The notes beneath the pieces were generated by a model. The model saw nothing but the letters and a program-made list of their open reading frames with translations, made no database searches and was not told the origin of the DNA. The translations under genes and the position numbers were made by a program. Shown piece after piece: positions 2,555 to 25,573 of a stretch of DNA of 32,310 nucleotides (its first letter is position 1; every line of letters begins with the position of its first letter). The DNA comes from Ruminococcus sp. (lineage in GTDB: Bacteria; Bacillota; Clostridia; Oscillospirales; Acutalibacteraceae). The stretch spans positions 1-32,310 of the forward strand of contig JAFTHZ010000011.1 in assembly GCA_017457155.1 (NCBI GenBank), read 5' to 3'.

Positions 2555-2779
2555 ATGGTATTTGACAATTCATGGATATTGATCGCCTTCGTGGCCGGTG
2601 TTATCATCGGGCTCATCGGAGTGTTCATCATGAAATCCCAGCTGAAGTCTGTCAGATTTCAGGCGGCTGCACATCACTATGAGAAGAAGGACACCTTCGT
2701 CCTCACAGAGCAGCGGGATGTGTATCTGTACTCCACAGTGACCAAGATCCCCAAGCCAAAGAACAACAGCAAGAAATAA
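2555..2779 (+). CDS. Small single-helix membrane protein resembling the C-terminal tail of TPM-domain (YdjH-like) proteins
   Basis: A 74-residue protein with one membrane segment at about residues 7-26, then a basic tail (KSQLKSVRFQAAAHHYEKKD, then LTEQRDVYLYSTVTKIPKPK). From memory this tail closely resembles the part after the transmembrane helix in clostridial TPM-domain proteins (YdjH type), in which a secreted TPM domain of about 150 residues comes first. That domain and its signal peptide are absent; the ATG lies just before the helix and has its own GGAGG at 2542-2546, overlapping the ydjG-like stop. So this is either a split protein, with the TPM part encoded elsewhere, or a shortened form that keeps only the membrane/cytoplasmic part. 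The gene ends just before a strong terminator and closes the operon. Confidence 0.65.
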   Translation: MVFDNSWILIAFVAGVIIGLIGVFIMKSQLKSVRFQAAAHHYEKKDTFVLTEQRDVYLYSTVTKIPKPKNNSKK

Positions 2780-2802
2780 TAGTTTTATTCTTGGATAAAC
2801 CT

Positions 2803-2835
2803 AAGCAGGCATAGTTTCTATGCCTGCTTTTTTTG
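2803..2835 (+). terminator. Rho-independent terminator of the SPFH operon
   Basis: A perfect 11-bp inverted repeat (2803-2813 with 2819-2829), loop GTTTC, followed by a T run to 2833. It lies 23 bp after the stop of the small membrane protein gene and separates this operon from the unknown two-gene operon. Confidence 0.85.
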
Positions 2836-2865
2836 TCAGCACAATCTCACGATCTGTATTTTGCC

Positions 2866-2895
2866 TTGTATTTCTTTGATCTGATATGCTATAAT
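2866..2895 (+). promoter_or_regulatory. Predicted promoter of the unknown two-gene operon
   Basis: A -35 of TTGTAT (2866-2871), an 18-bp spacer and a perfect -10 TATAAT (2890-2895) preceded by TGC, an extended -10. It lies between the upstream terminator and the gene at 2949, so the two-gene unit is transcribed independently with a leader of roughly 45-50 bases. Confidence 0.6.
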
Positions 2896-2948
2896 AATTT
2901 ACATAATTATACATATTTTGCAAGCTCATCGATCGTGAGGAAAAAACA

Positions 2949-4760
2949 ATGCCAACAAACGATAACTCTCTTTTCAGATTTGAAATCAACCAGGATAATC
3001 TTTGGGAACAGGAAAACCACAGAACTTCAGCCCAGACAGTAGAGGTTGAAGTCCTTCCTCCTGTGGATCTGAGCGACAAACTGAAAGTCGAAATATACAA
3101 GGGCATTACCGAAACGGACAAAAAGTTAAGTGCCATAAATGAACGTATCGAGGAGCTTAACTCCGAAATAGACAGCCTGACAAATCATGCAGATGGCCTG
3201 GACTATGCAGTAGCTGTGGCAAGCGGTATCCTGACAGGCATAGTCGACAGTATCTTTGTCGGTGAAATTGACATCAAAGGCGCAACCAAAGCCGCCGAAA
3301 AAGAAATATCAGACAAAGTAAAACAGAAAGCTCTGAAAGAAAAACAGGACGATACAGTAAAAAAAGCAATTGAAGGAGCAAAGAAAAAGGGCAAGCACCT
3401 GTCAAAAGAAGAGATAAATCAAATCCGGGAGCAAGTAAAGATCAAGTTCAATTCAGATCCCAACAATCTGGCTGACACAGATAAGGACCCGGTACTCAGA
3501 CGTGCTATAAAATATCTTGAGGATAAGCATCCCACTCCTCAGGATAACCTGTACAAGGGGACAGGCAGCAGCCCGTCCAATCATCATCTTGATGATATTG
3601 CTCATCATGCTTCTTTGGTAGGAATGATCGCATCAATTGTTGTTCAGTTCCTCAGGGTGGCAACCTTCGTCAACAATGAGGGAAAATGGCAACTGAAATT
3701 TGTCAAGACAGATCCCAAGGAGCTTGTCGAACTATGGTTGCCCATAGTAATCTCAGGACTGTTGAACTGGCTTGTATATATGGCAGAAAAAACCGAAGAT
3801 AATGAAGCAACCGAAAAAATACCTGAGCCAATTTTTAAGATCGCTCATCTGTTAGCAAGTGCACCTGCAATCATAAGTGTAATAAAGGCGATCAACAATT
3901 GGTGTATGCACCTCTATTCAGACGTTGCAGGTTCAGCAACCAGCAAGGGCAGAGGTGCCGGAATCCCGGGACTGTTTATTTCTATGCTCAAGGAAATCTC
4001 CAGCGTTCCGCCTCTGAATCGGACAGGATTGCCAAAGGTGGTTGATAATCTGTACACCACAAAGGGAATCGACCTGCGAACTGAGCTGGGAGTTATCAAA
4101 GAGCTTGGCAGACAGACTATTCCTGTAATTATCAATGAGCTCCTTGTACGTACATTTTATTTTATTCGTCGTTTAATCATTGAGTATAAGGAGCATGGAA
4201 GCTTCTCTGAAATCAACTGGCACAATGTTATCCCCATAGGCAATCGTACCGTAGAGCGGATGATGACTATTGCATCGGGTACTTTCACCGCCTTTGATAT
4301 TGCCGATGCTGCTATTCGTTCAGGAGGTTTCAATGCTTCCTGCATACTGAGAATAAACTTTGTCGGTGTCGGACGATTTGCTATTGCCATTGGCACCGAC
4401 ATAGGCATGGGCATCAAAAAAGCAAAGAAAGAACGCCTGCGCAGCGAGACGCTGAGCGAATATATCAATCTGTCCAAAATAAAAGTATACTACCGAAATG
4501 CCGACCTGTTGTGTTCGGAAGCAGAATTGTATGACAAGGAATCACAGATGCATTCAGCTGAGAAAGATGTCTGGAAAGAGCTCTGTTCCACAGAAGAATC
4601 AATACAGCAGCTGTATGAACAAATTAATATAGTCTGCCAATATCACATAAAGGCTATAGAAGAAATGAACGCCTGCTTAAATGATATAGAATTACTGATT
4701 CCCCATATAGACAAAAACAATCCGGGTTTAAGAGAAAAAATGCTTGAAAGGTTGAAATGA
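2949..4760 (+). CDS. Unknown 603-residue protein with several hydrophobic segments; first gene of a two-gene operon
   Basis: I cannot assign a function. A polar N-terminus (1-45) is followed by a short coiled coil (about 50-82), a hydrophobic stretch with DYAVAVASGILTGIVDSIFVG (85-105), and a highly charged Lys/Glu region (110-200). A His/Asp cluster HHLDDIAHH is at 212-220. Hydrophobic segments lie at about 222-240, 261-278, 296-316 and 391-410. A Gly-rich motif SDVAGSATSKGRGAGIPG is at 324-341 and a helix with ILRINFVGVGRFAIAIGTD at 466-484. The C-terminal 100 residues look helical. There is no signal peptide, so the protein is probably cytoplasmic or embedded in the inner face of the membrane. 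I recall similar unannotated proteins with the SKGRGxGIP motif in other gut Firmicutes (unverified). GAGG at 2937-2940 supports the ATG. Its stop overlaps the next start as ATGA. Heavy AAA/GAA use contrasts with the AAG/GAG-rich neighbours and suggests recent acquisition. Confidence 0.8.
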   Translation: MPTNDNSLFRFEINQDNLWEQENHRTSAQTVEVEVLPPVDLSDKLKVEIYKGITETDKKLSAINERIEELNSEIDSLTNHADGLDYAVAVASGILTGIVDSIFVGEIDIKGATKAAEKEISDKVKQKALKEKQDDTVKKAIEGAKKKGKHLSKEEINQIREQVKIKFNSDPNNLADTDKDPVLRRAIKYLEDKHPTPQDNLYKGTGSSPSNHHLDDIAHHASLVGMIASIVVQFLRVATFVNNEGKWQLKFVKTDPKELVELWLPIVISGLLNWLVYMAEKTEDNEATEKIPEPIFKIAHLLASAPAIISVIKAINNWCMHLYSDVAGSATSKGRGAGIPGLFISMLKEISSVPPLNRTGLPKVVDNLYTTKGIDLRTELGVIKELGRQTIPVIINELLVRTFYFIRRLIIEYKEHGSFSEINWHNVIPIGNRTVERMMTIASGTFTAFDIADAAIRSGGFNASCILRINFVGVGRFAIAIGTDIGMGIKKAKKERLRSETLSEYINLSKIKVYYRNADLLCSEAELYDKESQMHSAEKDVWKELCSTEESIQQLYEQINIVCQYHIKAIEEMNACLNDIELLIPHIDKNNPGLREKMLERLK

Positions 4761-6265
4761 AAATGAAAGACGAAATGATTGCTCAGCTCAACCCCACAAC
4801 AGAAAACCAACTGTCTTCCATTGATGAAGAAAGACTCCCTCAGATTTTTTCTGAACAAGTAGAGCTGTTGAAAGAAGCAAATAATGCATACAACGATGCA
4901 AAAGAAAAGGAAAAAGAAGCAAAAGATAAAGTTGAAACAGCACTATCAAATGCCTCCGCTCTGATTACCGCCGCAAAGAACGCAGGCGGCAACACAGCAA
5001 GCAAGAAAAAATTTTTGTGGGCAGAGTGGACCTCCAAAAAAGAAGAAATTGCAGTAATAAAACAAAACCTCATTGAAATCATAAAATACAACGAAAATAA
5101 CGCAGACGCACAAAAAAAGCTGGCCGAAGTTCAGTCTTCTTTGATGGAATCACAAACTGCCATACTTAAAGTCCAGGAAAAAAACATGGAATACCAGAGA
5201 AAGATCGCCGATGCTACTAAATTCGTCTTTGGACTTAGTGCATATAATATGGCAACAAGTCAATCTGTACTGGTCAAGTTGAGAGCAATCCTATCAGGAG
5301 CCAGCGAGGAGCAATTAGGCGAGCTTGCACAGCAGCAGCTATTCCTGGCGCTGGACCAGATAAAAAACCAGGAAAACATAATCACCCGTTTGAACGAAAG
5401 TGATAAGCTTATTAAAAAACTTAATGCTGAGATAGAAGAAAAGCAAAGAGAAATTGCTGAGATCGAGAAAAAGAACGAAGAGCAAAACCAACAGATATCA
5501 GAAAACACAAGCACATTAATCAAGCATGAGAATGCCCTTTCTGAACAGCAAAGCAAAAACAAGGAGCATGATTTGCTTATTGCCGCAGGAGCCGCAAAGG
5601 ATGTAGAGCAGGATGCTCTCATCTCTGCTATGGAGGAAAAGGACGCAGCACAGGATGCTCTCATCTCTGCTATGGAGGAGAAGGACACAGCACAGGATGC
5701 TCTCATCTCTGCTATGGAGGAAAAGGACACAGCACAGGACGCCCTCATCTCTGCTATGGAGGAAAAGGACACAGAGCAAGATAACAAAATTACCGACCTA
5801 AACTCCCAGGTTGACAAGCATGAAAACATCATCCAGGTACATTCCCGTCAGATTAAAGAATCAGAACTGAGAATTCAGGATGTTTCCCAAAGCATCGCCA
5901 ATGCAACTGCTGAACTAAAGGAAACCATATCCGAAAATGCAGAAACTGCAGACAACAAACTCCTGTCAATTGAGAGAAAAACCGAAGATCAGCTTGACAT
6001 TATGAGAGAGTATGTCAACGATTCCAACGACTCCCTCAAAAAACAGTTAGAAGAGATATCAACACAGCTCAAGGATTCCATCTCCGAACTCAAACATCAA
6101 CTGGATACTCAAAACAAAGAAATGAACAAAAAGATAGAGAGTCTGGAGGACAAAGCTTCTGCACTTAACGTTGCTGTCAGAAGAAAGATCTGGAAAATCA
6201 CTGTATCCGTCGTTGCAGGCACCTCTTTGGTTCTGACTATACTCAACATTCTGGGTATCATATAA
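4757..6265 (+). CDS. Tail-anchored coiled-coil protein with 14-residue repeats; second gene of the unknown operon
   Basis: A 502-residue protein that is almost wholly coiled coil, rich in Lys, Glu, Gln and Ala, with few prolines. Residues 286-341 are four tandem copies of a 14-residue unit (DALISAMEEKDTAQ type), preceded by one degraded copy at 272-285. Fourteen residues is exactly two heptads, so the repeats would lengthen the rod without changing register. The last 25 residues (about 478-502, ending in LVLTILNILGII) form one membrane helix after a basic RRKIWK patch. This gives a tail anchor with the long coiled coil in the cytoplasm. The start overlaps the stop of the upstream gene (ATGA at 4757-4760), with GAAAGG at 4746-4751, so the two products are probably made together and interact. 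Function unknown: a structural tether or partner of the 603-residue protein is inferred. Confidence 0.8.
   Translation: MKMKDEMIAQLNPTTENQLSSIDEERLPQIFSEQVELLKEANNAYNDAKEKEKEAKDKVETALSNASALITAAKNAGGNTASKKKFLWAEWTSKKEEIAVIKQNLIEIIKYNENNADAQKKLAEVQSSLMESQTAILKVQEKNMEYQRKIADATKFVFGLSAYNMATSQSVLVKLRAILSGASEEQLGELAQQQLFLALDQIKNQENIITRLNESDKLIKKLNAEIEEKQREIAEIEKKNEEQNQQISENTSTLIKHENALSEQQSKNKEHDLLIAAGAAKDVEQDALISAMEEKDAAQDALISAMEEKDTAQDALISAMEEKDTAQDALISAMEEKDTEQDNKITDLNSQVDKHENIIQVHSRQIKESELRIQDVSQSIANATAELKETISENAETADNKLLSIERKTEDQLDIMREYVNDSNDSLKKQLEEISTQLKDSISELKHQLDTQNKEMNKKIESLEDKASALNVAVRRKIWKITVSVVAGTSLVLTILNILGII
5570..5779 (+). repeat. Tandem 42-bp coding repeat
   Basis: Four near-identical 42-bp units at 5612-5653, 5654-5695, 5696-5737 and 5738-5779, plus one diverged unit at 5570-5611. 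They differ by only a few bases, mainly GCA/ACA and GAG/GAA changes. They stay in frame and encode two heptads each. The near identity implies recent duplication and possible copy-number variation between strains. Confidence 0.92.
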
Positions 6266-6291
6266 CTCTCTGGTTCAATTATGTAATGATC

Positions 6292-6327
6292 AAATCTCCT
6301 TATCGTAAGGTAAGGAGATTTAATTTT
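6292..6327 (+). terminator. Probable terminator of the unknown two-gene operon
   Basis: An 11-bp perfect inverted repeat (6292-6302 with 6311-6321), loop of 8 bases, followed by a short AATTTT tract, 26 bp after the coiled-coil gene. The T run is short, so termination may be partial. Confidence 0.6.
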
Positions 6328-6414
6328 GCGATGCAACATACTGTCAAGTACACTCCTTTTGTCTAACAAATTTTGATTTCCTGTTCCGCTTTTTGTGTTT
6401 TATCATTTTTCTTA

Positions 6415-6443
6415 TTGAGATTTGGTTTTCTCTGTGTTATTAT
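6415..6443 (+). promoter_or_regulatory. Predicted promoter of the dockerin metallophosphoesterase gene
   Basis: TTGAGA (6415-6420), 17-bp spacer, TATTAT (6438-6443). The downstream leader of about 50 bases carries AGGAGG at 6491-6496, 5 bases before the ATG at 6502. The region 6328-6414 is AT-rich and shows nothing else recognisable. Confidence 0.55.
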
Positions 6444-6501
6444 TAATTTGTAATATTGTACATTTGTACATTGTCGGAATTTTTTATCACAGGAGGTCAT
6501 T

Positions 6502-23059: not shown

Positions 23060-23102
23060 AAAAACAAAACCGGGCAGAGCTATAGTGTGTACAGCTCTGC
23101 CC
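23060..23102 (-). terminator. Intrinsic terminator of the purE riboswitch (expression platform)
   Basis: A perfect 10-bp stem (23093-23102 with 23072-23081), 11-base loop, followed on the minus strand by GGTTTTGTTTTT. Its 5' arm begins with the GGGC that also ends the riboswitch aptamer (23099-23102). Ligand-bound aptamer and terminator are therefore mutually exclusive, predicting an ON switch. Confidence 0.88.
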
Positions 23103-23175
23103 AGGCGGTCGACATAAAAACGGTTTCCTGCTCCCATGTGGTGCTCCACTTCTCCGCCAGTTACAGAAACCATTA
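23099..23175 (-). promoter_or_regulatory. ZTP/ZMP riboswitch (pfl motif) upstream of the purine operon
   Basis: Read on the minus strand, the leader holds a P1-type stem GGTTTC/GAAACC (23166-23171 with 23122-23127), CTGGCGG inside it, a GTGG/CCAC hairpin, GGGAGC, and the conserved 3' block CCGCCTGGGC (23099-23108). GGCGG and CCGCC can form the pseudoknot typical of this class. ZTP riboswitches sense ZMP/ZTP, which rises when 10-formyl-THF is short, and turn on purine and folate genes. Placement directly before purE and ahead of an overlapping terminator agrees with this. Identification is from remembered consensus, not a covariance search. Confidence 0.88.
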
Positions 23176-25230: not shown

Positions 25231-25297
25231 AGTGGGAAATCGCCTTAAAAATGCAGAATGCCCAACCGGGAAATGGATCTCGATTAGGCATCTTTTA

Positions 25298-25455
25298 ATG
25301 AAATCCTTGCTTGCGCAAGGATGAAATCTGCTGTGCAGATGAAATCCAAGCCAATGGCTTGGATGAAATTAAATCCACCCGCCCGCCGTCAAGGCGGATT
25401 TCATCCCCGTAGGGGATTTCAAGATGATTTATTCCACCCGGCAGGGTGGATTTAG
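25298..25455. repeat. Array of modular hairpins joined by a constant TGAAAT spacer
   Basis: A run of consecutive perfect palindromes with different stems but common flanks. Stems: 25303-25310 with 25315-25322; 25326-25331 with 25335-25340; 25344-25352 with 25356-25364; 25383-25387 with 25393-25397; 25403-25408 with 25412-25417; and 25433-25439 with 25444-25450. The last arm can also pair with 25371-25380 to close a larger structure. GGATGAAAT or its complement joins several of them. It looks like a non-autonomous repeat element lying just beyond the tRNA terminator. Confidence 0.7.
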
Positions 25456-25496: not shown

Positions 25497-25573
25497 TGGT
25501 GTGGATGAATGGACTTGAACCATCGACCCCTTGCATGTCAAGCAAGTACTCTAACCAGCTGAGCTACACCCAC
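25497..25573 (-). tRNA. tRNA-Val (anticodon GAC)
   Basis: On the minus strand a full cloverleaf of 77 nt. The acceptor GTGGGTG pairs with CATCCAC (one G-U), followed by TAGCTCAGCTGGTTAGAG as the D arm. The anticodon stem is CTTGC/GCAAG with loop TTGACAT, so the anticodon is GAC (25537-25539 on plus). The T arm contains GTTCAAGTC. CCA is encoded at the 3' end (25497-25499). Confidence 0.95.

Follow-up and report, generated by a model that had tools for sequence, protein, structure and literature searches.

The window analysed here, a 32,310-nt stretch of DNA (positions 1 to 32,310 of contig JAFTHZ010000011.1 from Ruminococcus sp., assembly GCA_017457155.1), contains a two-gene operon that probably is a horizontally acquired, Bunzi-like anti-phage system with a BnzB-family core, in which an unrelated tail-anchored coiled-coil protein stands in for BnzA. 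The two open reading frames (ORFs) lie on the forward strand at 2949-4760 (603 aa, product P0001) and 4757-6265 (502 aa, product P0002) and overlap by ATGA, as described in a first-pass annotation of this DNA. Bunzi was reportedly described by Millman et al. in 2022 as the pair of BnzA and BnzB. The elements of our interpretation differ in strength. Sequence comparison makes it very likely that the operon is a BnzB-family variant with a substituted partner. Homology and mobility argue with good probability for a role in anti-phage defence, and the inner membrane is the somewhat favoured site of action. That BnzB is the catalytic part is possible but less likely than not.

P0001 matched the PADLOC profile for BnzB with an E-value of 2.2e-54 and 183 bits over residues 65-507 (about 3141-4469), corresponding to profile positions 149-499 of 504. 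The same profile reached 504 bits on a Lactococcus plasmid pJM1B protein located 3′ of a full-length BnzA (421 bits) and thus marks the canonical pair. It also matched all 50 members of alignment A5, which comprises the window and 49 of 54 full-length relatives (L102, L104, L113, L119 and L120 omitted). Pfam, NCBIfam and PHROGs gave nothing near cut-off for either product, and neither Pfam nor PHROGs linked the 603-residue protein to a housekeeping family, the outcome that the first-pass annotation had named as contradicting its view. Its statement that both products lack a recognised domain is correct for these three databases and fails for PADLOC, which recognises the first product. Relatives were not found by single-sequence scans of viral_contigs and genome_contigs or by an alignment scan of viral_contigs. 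The alignment scan of genome_contigs returned 209 relatives, the best 80 of which were taken as loci; 79 remained, L126 having no clear BnzB ORF.

Both motifs quoted earlier are present in P0001. HHLDDIAHH covers residues 212-220 (3582-3608), and the second motif, quoted as residues 324-341, lies within the stretch from H321 to G341, HLYSDVAGSATSKGRGAGIPG (3909-3971). Seven residues (D199, H212, H219, G225, H321, D325 and G338) are invariant across an alignment of 98 BnzB proteins that covers all partner types and omits the three partial or odd rows L066, L095 and L133. An assignment of BnzB as a metal hydrolase (Zn-dependent phospholipase or HD-like, from motifs) was considered and set aside, no search supporting it. 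Description of P0001 as a multi-segment membrane protein did not stand up to comparison and is doubtful. Two of its four hydrophobic segments (residues 259-277 and 294-312) belong to an insertion at 3723-3884 that was found in 10 of 51 tail-type rows, all from the subclade of the window (including L070-L075, L081, L098 and L117). Among tail-type relatives, only residues of about 80-110 are regularly hydrophobic: this stretch, which includes the segment at residues 87-105 (3207-3263), reached the threshold in 86% of 50 tail-type BnzB proteins.

The second product belongs to an unnamed protein family that combines a conserved N-terminal domain, a coiled coil of variable length and a C-terminal membrane anchor. 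Residues 1-235 (4757-5461) form the conserved region that defines the family. The stalk of P0002 contains four tandem repeats of 42 bp (14 aa, two heptads) at 5609-5774, and its single hydrophobic segment lies beyond the coiled coil at the extreme C-terminus (residues 484-502, 6206-6262), preceded by RRKIWK. The earlier description as a long coiled coil ending in a membrane anchor is thus borne out. The flank of the anchor on the coiled-coil (N) side was the more positive one in 36 of 41 partners, which predicts a cytoplasmic coiled coil. In 40 of the 58 best-ranked loci (L070-L127 without L126, plus L145), the ORF immediately downstream of BnzB ends in a membrane segment. Searches against the PDB recovered only coiled-coil look-alikes for the whole partner; for its N-terminal domain they returned designed helical proteins (E 0.01-0.02) and one unrelated enzyme (E 0.32). 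Tandem-repeat arrays were present in 24 of 52 partner genes versus 3 of 54 BnzB genes. Of the 36 array rows reported, a number in which overlapping rows from a single array count separately, 34 have a period that is a multiple of 21 bp (one heptad). As a coiled coil favours heptad periods, the arrays show how the length of the stalk changes, not that its length matters.

The two families are paired. A profile of the partner N-terminal domain, built from 41 proteins of the genome_contigs loci (best 80 of 209), matched 54 ORFs in the loci examined. All 54 were located beside BnzB and none elsewhere. They comprise 51 of the 79 genome_contigs loci, the window and two loci from class genomes (L060 and L062, apparently the same contigs as L100 and L118). 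In the 51 loci the partner was encoded directly downstream of BnzB in 47 cases, after one intervening ORF in two and directly upstream in two. The window partner matched with an E-value of 1.2e-42, its sequence being part of the training set. Since 40 of the 51 partners were likewise training members, the 11 others and a class-wide search are the cleaner tests. The latter detected the partner domain in 3 of 391 genomes (our own, G418 and G549), each time beside BnzB, with a query alignment that contained the own and G549 sequences. All 51 partners fell within the 58 best-ranked loci; the seven exceptions were contig ends (L076, L119) or had other neighbours (L104, L107, L113, L120, L125), and none of the remaining 21 of the 79 loci contained the partner. 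Moreover, BnzB and partner diverged together (Mantel r 0.716 for 40 pairs, 0 of 2000 permutations as high). Co-occurrence of the homologues with the coiled-coil gene, proposed as a test in the first-pass annotation, was therefore observed both in the genome_contigs loci and class-wide.

Other branches of the BnzB family are accompanied by different proteins. BnzA-like genes are found upstream in some; the canonical pair on Lactococcus cremoris plasmid pJM1B (L176, 3871-7071) is located near lactose genes, and a BnzB relative occurred in 12 Lactococcus plasmid records. Other branches have downstream genes of 366-374 aa, whose plasmid and phage counterparts match PDC-M09A, or a 250 plus 340 aa pair, the 340-aa member of which (L130) also matches PDC-M09A. 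Still others encode a single long BnzB of about 730-895 aa with a Gly-rich C-terminal membrane domain (L048, L063, L065, L128, L131 and others). At L113 (9410-11215), residues 463-559 of a 601-aa BnzB partner match the N-terminal part of BnzA. The 366-374 aa and 340-aa partners are related (hhalign 99 percent), BnzA-like against 366-374 aa partners reached only 38 percent in the same kind of comparison, over 41 columns, and the partner family of the window resembled neither of the two other partner types with which it was compared. A PDB search with the 340-aa type gave nothing useful. In the tree, an 85-row clade (support 0.96) has the tail-anchored type as its background, with the long forms and the 340-aa type nested inside it. 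Six changes, the fewest possible, explain the seven partner states, on a tree whose inner branches are often weakly supported and whose labels derive from ORF length, hydropathy and profile matches.

Among known systems, Bunzi is one of the closest to the operon. Like Bunzi, it is a pair of adjacent genes encoding a BnzB homologue and a membrane-associated partner. In contrast to Bunzi, the partner is unrelated to BnzA by profile and profile-profile comparison, lies downstream rather than upstream, and has one C-terminal anchor on a coiled coil, the aligned tail-type partners showing no Gly-rich membrane segment. A TerB domain is listed for Bunzi in PMC10952713. Neither product matched TerB (Pfam, E up to 1), which discriminates little because the canonical BnzA of L176 gave no match either (E 0.001). 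PDC-M09, a PADLOC phage-defence candidate, shares the BnzB core and a partner encoded directly downstream. For instance, a Lactiplantibacillus plasmid and phage NatCom_3357 (L175, 3294-5847, near the record end) encode BnzB directly followed by a 369-aa PDC-M09A protein. Partners of this type differ by their Gly-rich membrane domain, and the PDC-M09A model matched neither P0002 nor the 41 partners, nor did comparison of alignments A9 and A10 give any match. The long BnzB forms share the core and the clade; here, the role of the partner seems to be carried by the fused C-terminal Gly-rich domain. L048, the only long form scanned, had weak matches to PDC-M09A and LeoBC, and no tail-anchored partner was matched beside long forms. 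ZorA of Zorya and LmuB of Lamassu are defence proteins with long coiled coils. Weak matches of the partners to the LmuB (3 of 41) and ZorA (1 of 41) models are read as coiled-coil composition, and Pfam found no ATPase or stator domain in the window pair.

The operon was gained at a site that is empty in congeners. In five of them (G113, G118, G105, G045 and G028), the zinc-ribbon gene of the upstream flank lies next to the metallophosphoesterase/dockerin gene of the downstream flank, and the edges of the flank matches are 915-1453 bases apart versus 3955 in the window. As both flanks match congeners, they belong to the genus. None of the five is among the 5 of 161 genus genomes (own included) with a P0001 relative. 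Besides our own, the four genomes with such a relative contain other BnzB types, namely long single-gene forms in G012, G017 and G098 and a form with a 368-aa two-segment partner in G124, as assigned from ORF length and neighbours. Across the class, the BnzB profile matched in 21 of 391 genomes, own included. Tail-type pairs span five phyla (Bacillota, Bacteroidota, Spirochaetota, Pseudomonadota and Verrucomicrobiota, according to the record titles of the genome_contigs relatives), and the 14 phylum changes counted on the tree also speak for mobility. The rows nearest to the window in the tree come mostly from Clostridia, Bacteroidota and Treponema of gut and rumen. Target-site duplications were not recognised among the direct repeats of 2750-6500. 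Codon usage of the operon is foreign relative to the other genes of the window. AAA makes up 0.58 and 0.61 of lysine codons AAA plus AAG in the two genes versus 0.03-0.32 in nine other window genes, and GAA 0.65 and 0.63 of GAA plus GAG versus 0.03-0.21. Likewise, the G+C content at third codon positions is 0.44 for the operon versus 0.55-0.65. These values bear out the A-rich codon use noted at first reading.

A defensive role is suggested by BnzB homology, by mobility, by the presence of other BnzB types on plasmids and in a phage and by adjacent WYL regulator genes. BnzB relatives were found in 23 plasmid records and one phage record; the three plasmid or phage regions inspected encode BnzA or PDC-M09A, i.e. 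non-tail partners. Bunzi is often plasmid-borne in Salmonella according to PMC11305592. Six of 80 loci (L105, L077, L078, L087, L107 and L113) have a WYL gene 2-94 bp upstream of BnzB; four of the six have the tail-anchored partner (L107 and L113 do not). The six proteins behind the WYL profile exceeded the Pfam cut-off for WYL. Perhaps the operon has the WYL gene as an optional third member. PMC9122601 reports regulators of this class next to defence systems. The initial proposal of an accessory system, for example in phage defence, gains support from BnzB homology, patchiness, foreign codons, empty sites and the spread over five phyla. Isolated cases among neighbours elsewhere were a BrxP (L089) and a TIR-like protein (L111), in a scan of 10 proteins that left 8 unmatched.

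How might such a system work? The partner would be held in the inner membrane by its C-terminal anchor, with the coiled coil and the N-terminal domain in the cytoplasm. Through the N-terminal domain it might bind and cluster BnzB, which, with its possible metal site, would be the conserved sensing or catalytic core. Infection would then trigger the complex at the membrane, and phage production would stop, perhaps through killing of the cell. Binding, trigger and outcome are what we infer from the arrangement of the parts. A bolder and rather improbable extension sees BnzB as the unchanging centre of a modular platform for membrane immunity with exchangeable membrane partners (BnzA, PDC-M09A-like proteins, a fused Gly-rich domain or the tail-anchored coiled coil) and, as part of the same claim, the heptad-stepped stalk as an adjustable arm or ruler. 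The stalk would hold BnzB at a defined distance from the membrane or cluster it around an injecting phage.

Several results weigh against a Bunzi-like defence system. At 183 versus 504 bits the BnzB match is remote, and the first 148 profile positions are unmatched. BnzA, which is half of the definition of Bunzi, had no match in the genome (E 0.001), in P0002 or in the 41 partners (E 0.01). A PDB sequence search with BnzB found no relative (best E 0.33) and no enzyme family was found for it; the possible metal site of D199, H212, H219, H321 and D325 is a guess from conservation. Among the 161 genus genomes, the tail-type pair was found only in our own. The 14 phylum changes that the tree needs are a raw count, made with 25 of 100 rows without phylum and the window entered as Bacillota. 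No defence gene was found among the window neighbours (four compared with PADLOC, six with Pfam). PADLOC matches of 129 neighbour proteins were not distinct from those of 108 control proteins (25 most frequent families per set), a tally that is not informative because type I restriction genes occurred in the set of 12 control regions. Finally, WYL genes numbered 12 in 1129 kb of test loci versus none in the 144 kb of control sequence, for which the expectation is about 1.5; the overall rate therefore proves nothing, and only adjacency was used.

Some of these findings would also suit an accessory module for membrane stress, the envelope or cell division that shares the BnzB fold without being an immune system. 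A BnzB with a hydrophobic segment next to a coiled-coil membrane protein fits an envelope scaffold, as do window neighbours devoid of defence genes and PADLOC tallies resembling the control. However, patchy presence, foreign codons, empty sites and a five-phylum spread are unusual for an envelope function, and in other BnzB branches the partner is BnzA or PDC-M09A, with some of these pairs carried by plasmids and one by a phage, which makes this explanation unlikely. Slightly less likely still, the operon could encode a toxin-antitoxin or interbacterial-conflict pair, the tail-anchored protein being a membrane toxin that BnzB neutralises. Overlapping genes, a membrane-anchored second product and mobility are typical enough of such pairs, but small membrane toxins are unlike a long coiled coil with one anchor, and BnzB persists alongside several unrelated partners and also in fused form. 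Besides, a Pfam scan of eight window products revealed no secretion component, although no search was made for export signals. An ordinary Bunzi whose BnzA has diverged beyond recognition would explain the two-gene plan, the BnzB-like first gene and the membrane-associated partner beside it, but is very improbable because the hhalign probabilities of 0.7 and 0.3 percent, obtained when the partner family was compared with a set of six BnzA-like proteins encoded upstream of BnzB, led us to reject homology, 0 of 41 partners match the BnzA model, the Gly-rich segment of BnzA-like and PDC-M09A-like partners is unseen in aligned tail-type proteins and the gene order is reversed.

A Bunzi-like system with an exchanged partner would be of interest beyond this genome. 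A widespread branch that keeps BnzB and replaces its partner suggests which half is the core, and natural partner swaps can be used for testing the function of the partner. Searches that require BnzA would miss tail-type BnzB loci. The heptad-stepped stalk makes the hypothesis of length dependence directly testable. Bunzi is listed among largely uncharacterised systems in a 2026 review (PMC12926258). Literature searches on Bunzi, BnzB and BnzA found no paper on the mechanism of Bunzi, and none was found on PDC-M09; the passages of PMC11514479 on the naming of PADLOC candidates do not include it. No paper joining phage defense, tail-anchored and coiled-coil was found, and a looser search gave other systems.

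The gap that the operon fills is flanked by the preceding gene's terminator-like hairpin (2803-2829) and the following gene's promoter-like site (6415-6443). Its own 3′ hairpin, placed at 6292-6327 by the first-pass annotation, was located at 6289-6324 on the forward strand, with arms at 6289-6302 and 6311-6324. The 13-pair stem is strong (−20.2 kcal/mol, z −5.3, beating 200 of 200 shuffles), but the T tail is weak and for this reason the hairpin is absent from the terminator-scan list. The promoter assigned by the same annotation at 2866-2895 (forward strand) was read by eye. It consists of TTGTAT as −35 element (3 of 6 matches), an 18-nt spacer and TATAAT (6 of 6) preceded by TGC, and an extended −10 site with a poor −35 element is plausible, though unconfirmed. 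The site falls below the promoter-scan threshold of at least 4 of 6 matches in each hexamer and is not listed by the scan, which found 11 promoter-like sites in the region versus 7.2 ± 2.9 in shuffles, no clear excess. In the upstream flank, outside the system, a 74-aa ORF at 2555-2779 (forward strand) is a remnant, corresponding to the C-terminal part of a longer gene that appears whole in the five congeners; what it lacks, just upstream of the operon, is the N-terminal portion. We take this gene to encode a TPM-domain protein. Elsewhere in the window, a ZMP/ZTP riboswitch at 23092-23174 (reverse strand) and a Gut-1 RNA at 25296-25374 (forward strand) scored above the Rfam gathering score, and a tRNA-Val is encoded at 25497-25573.

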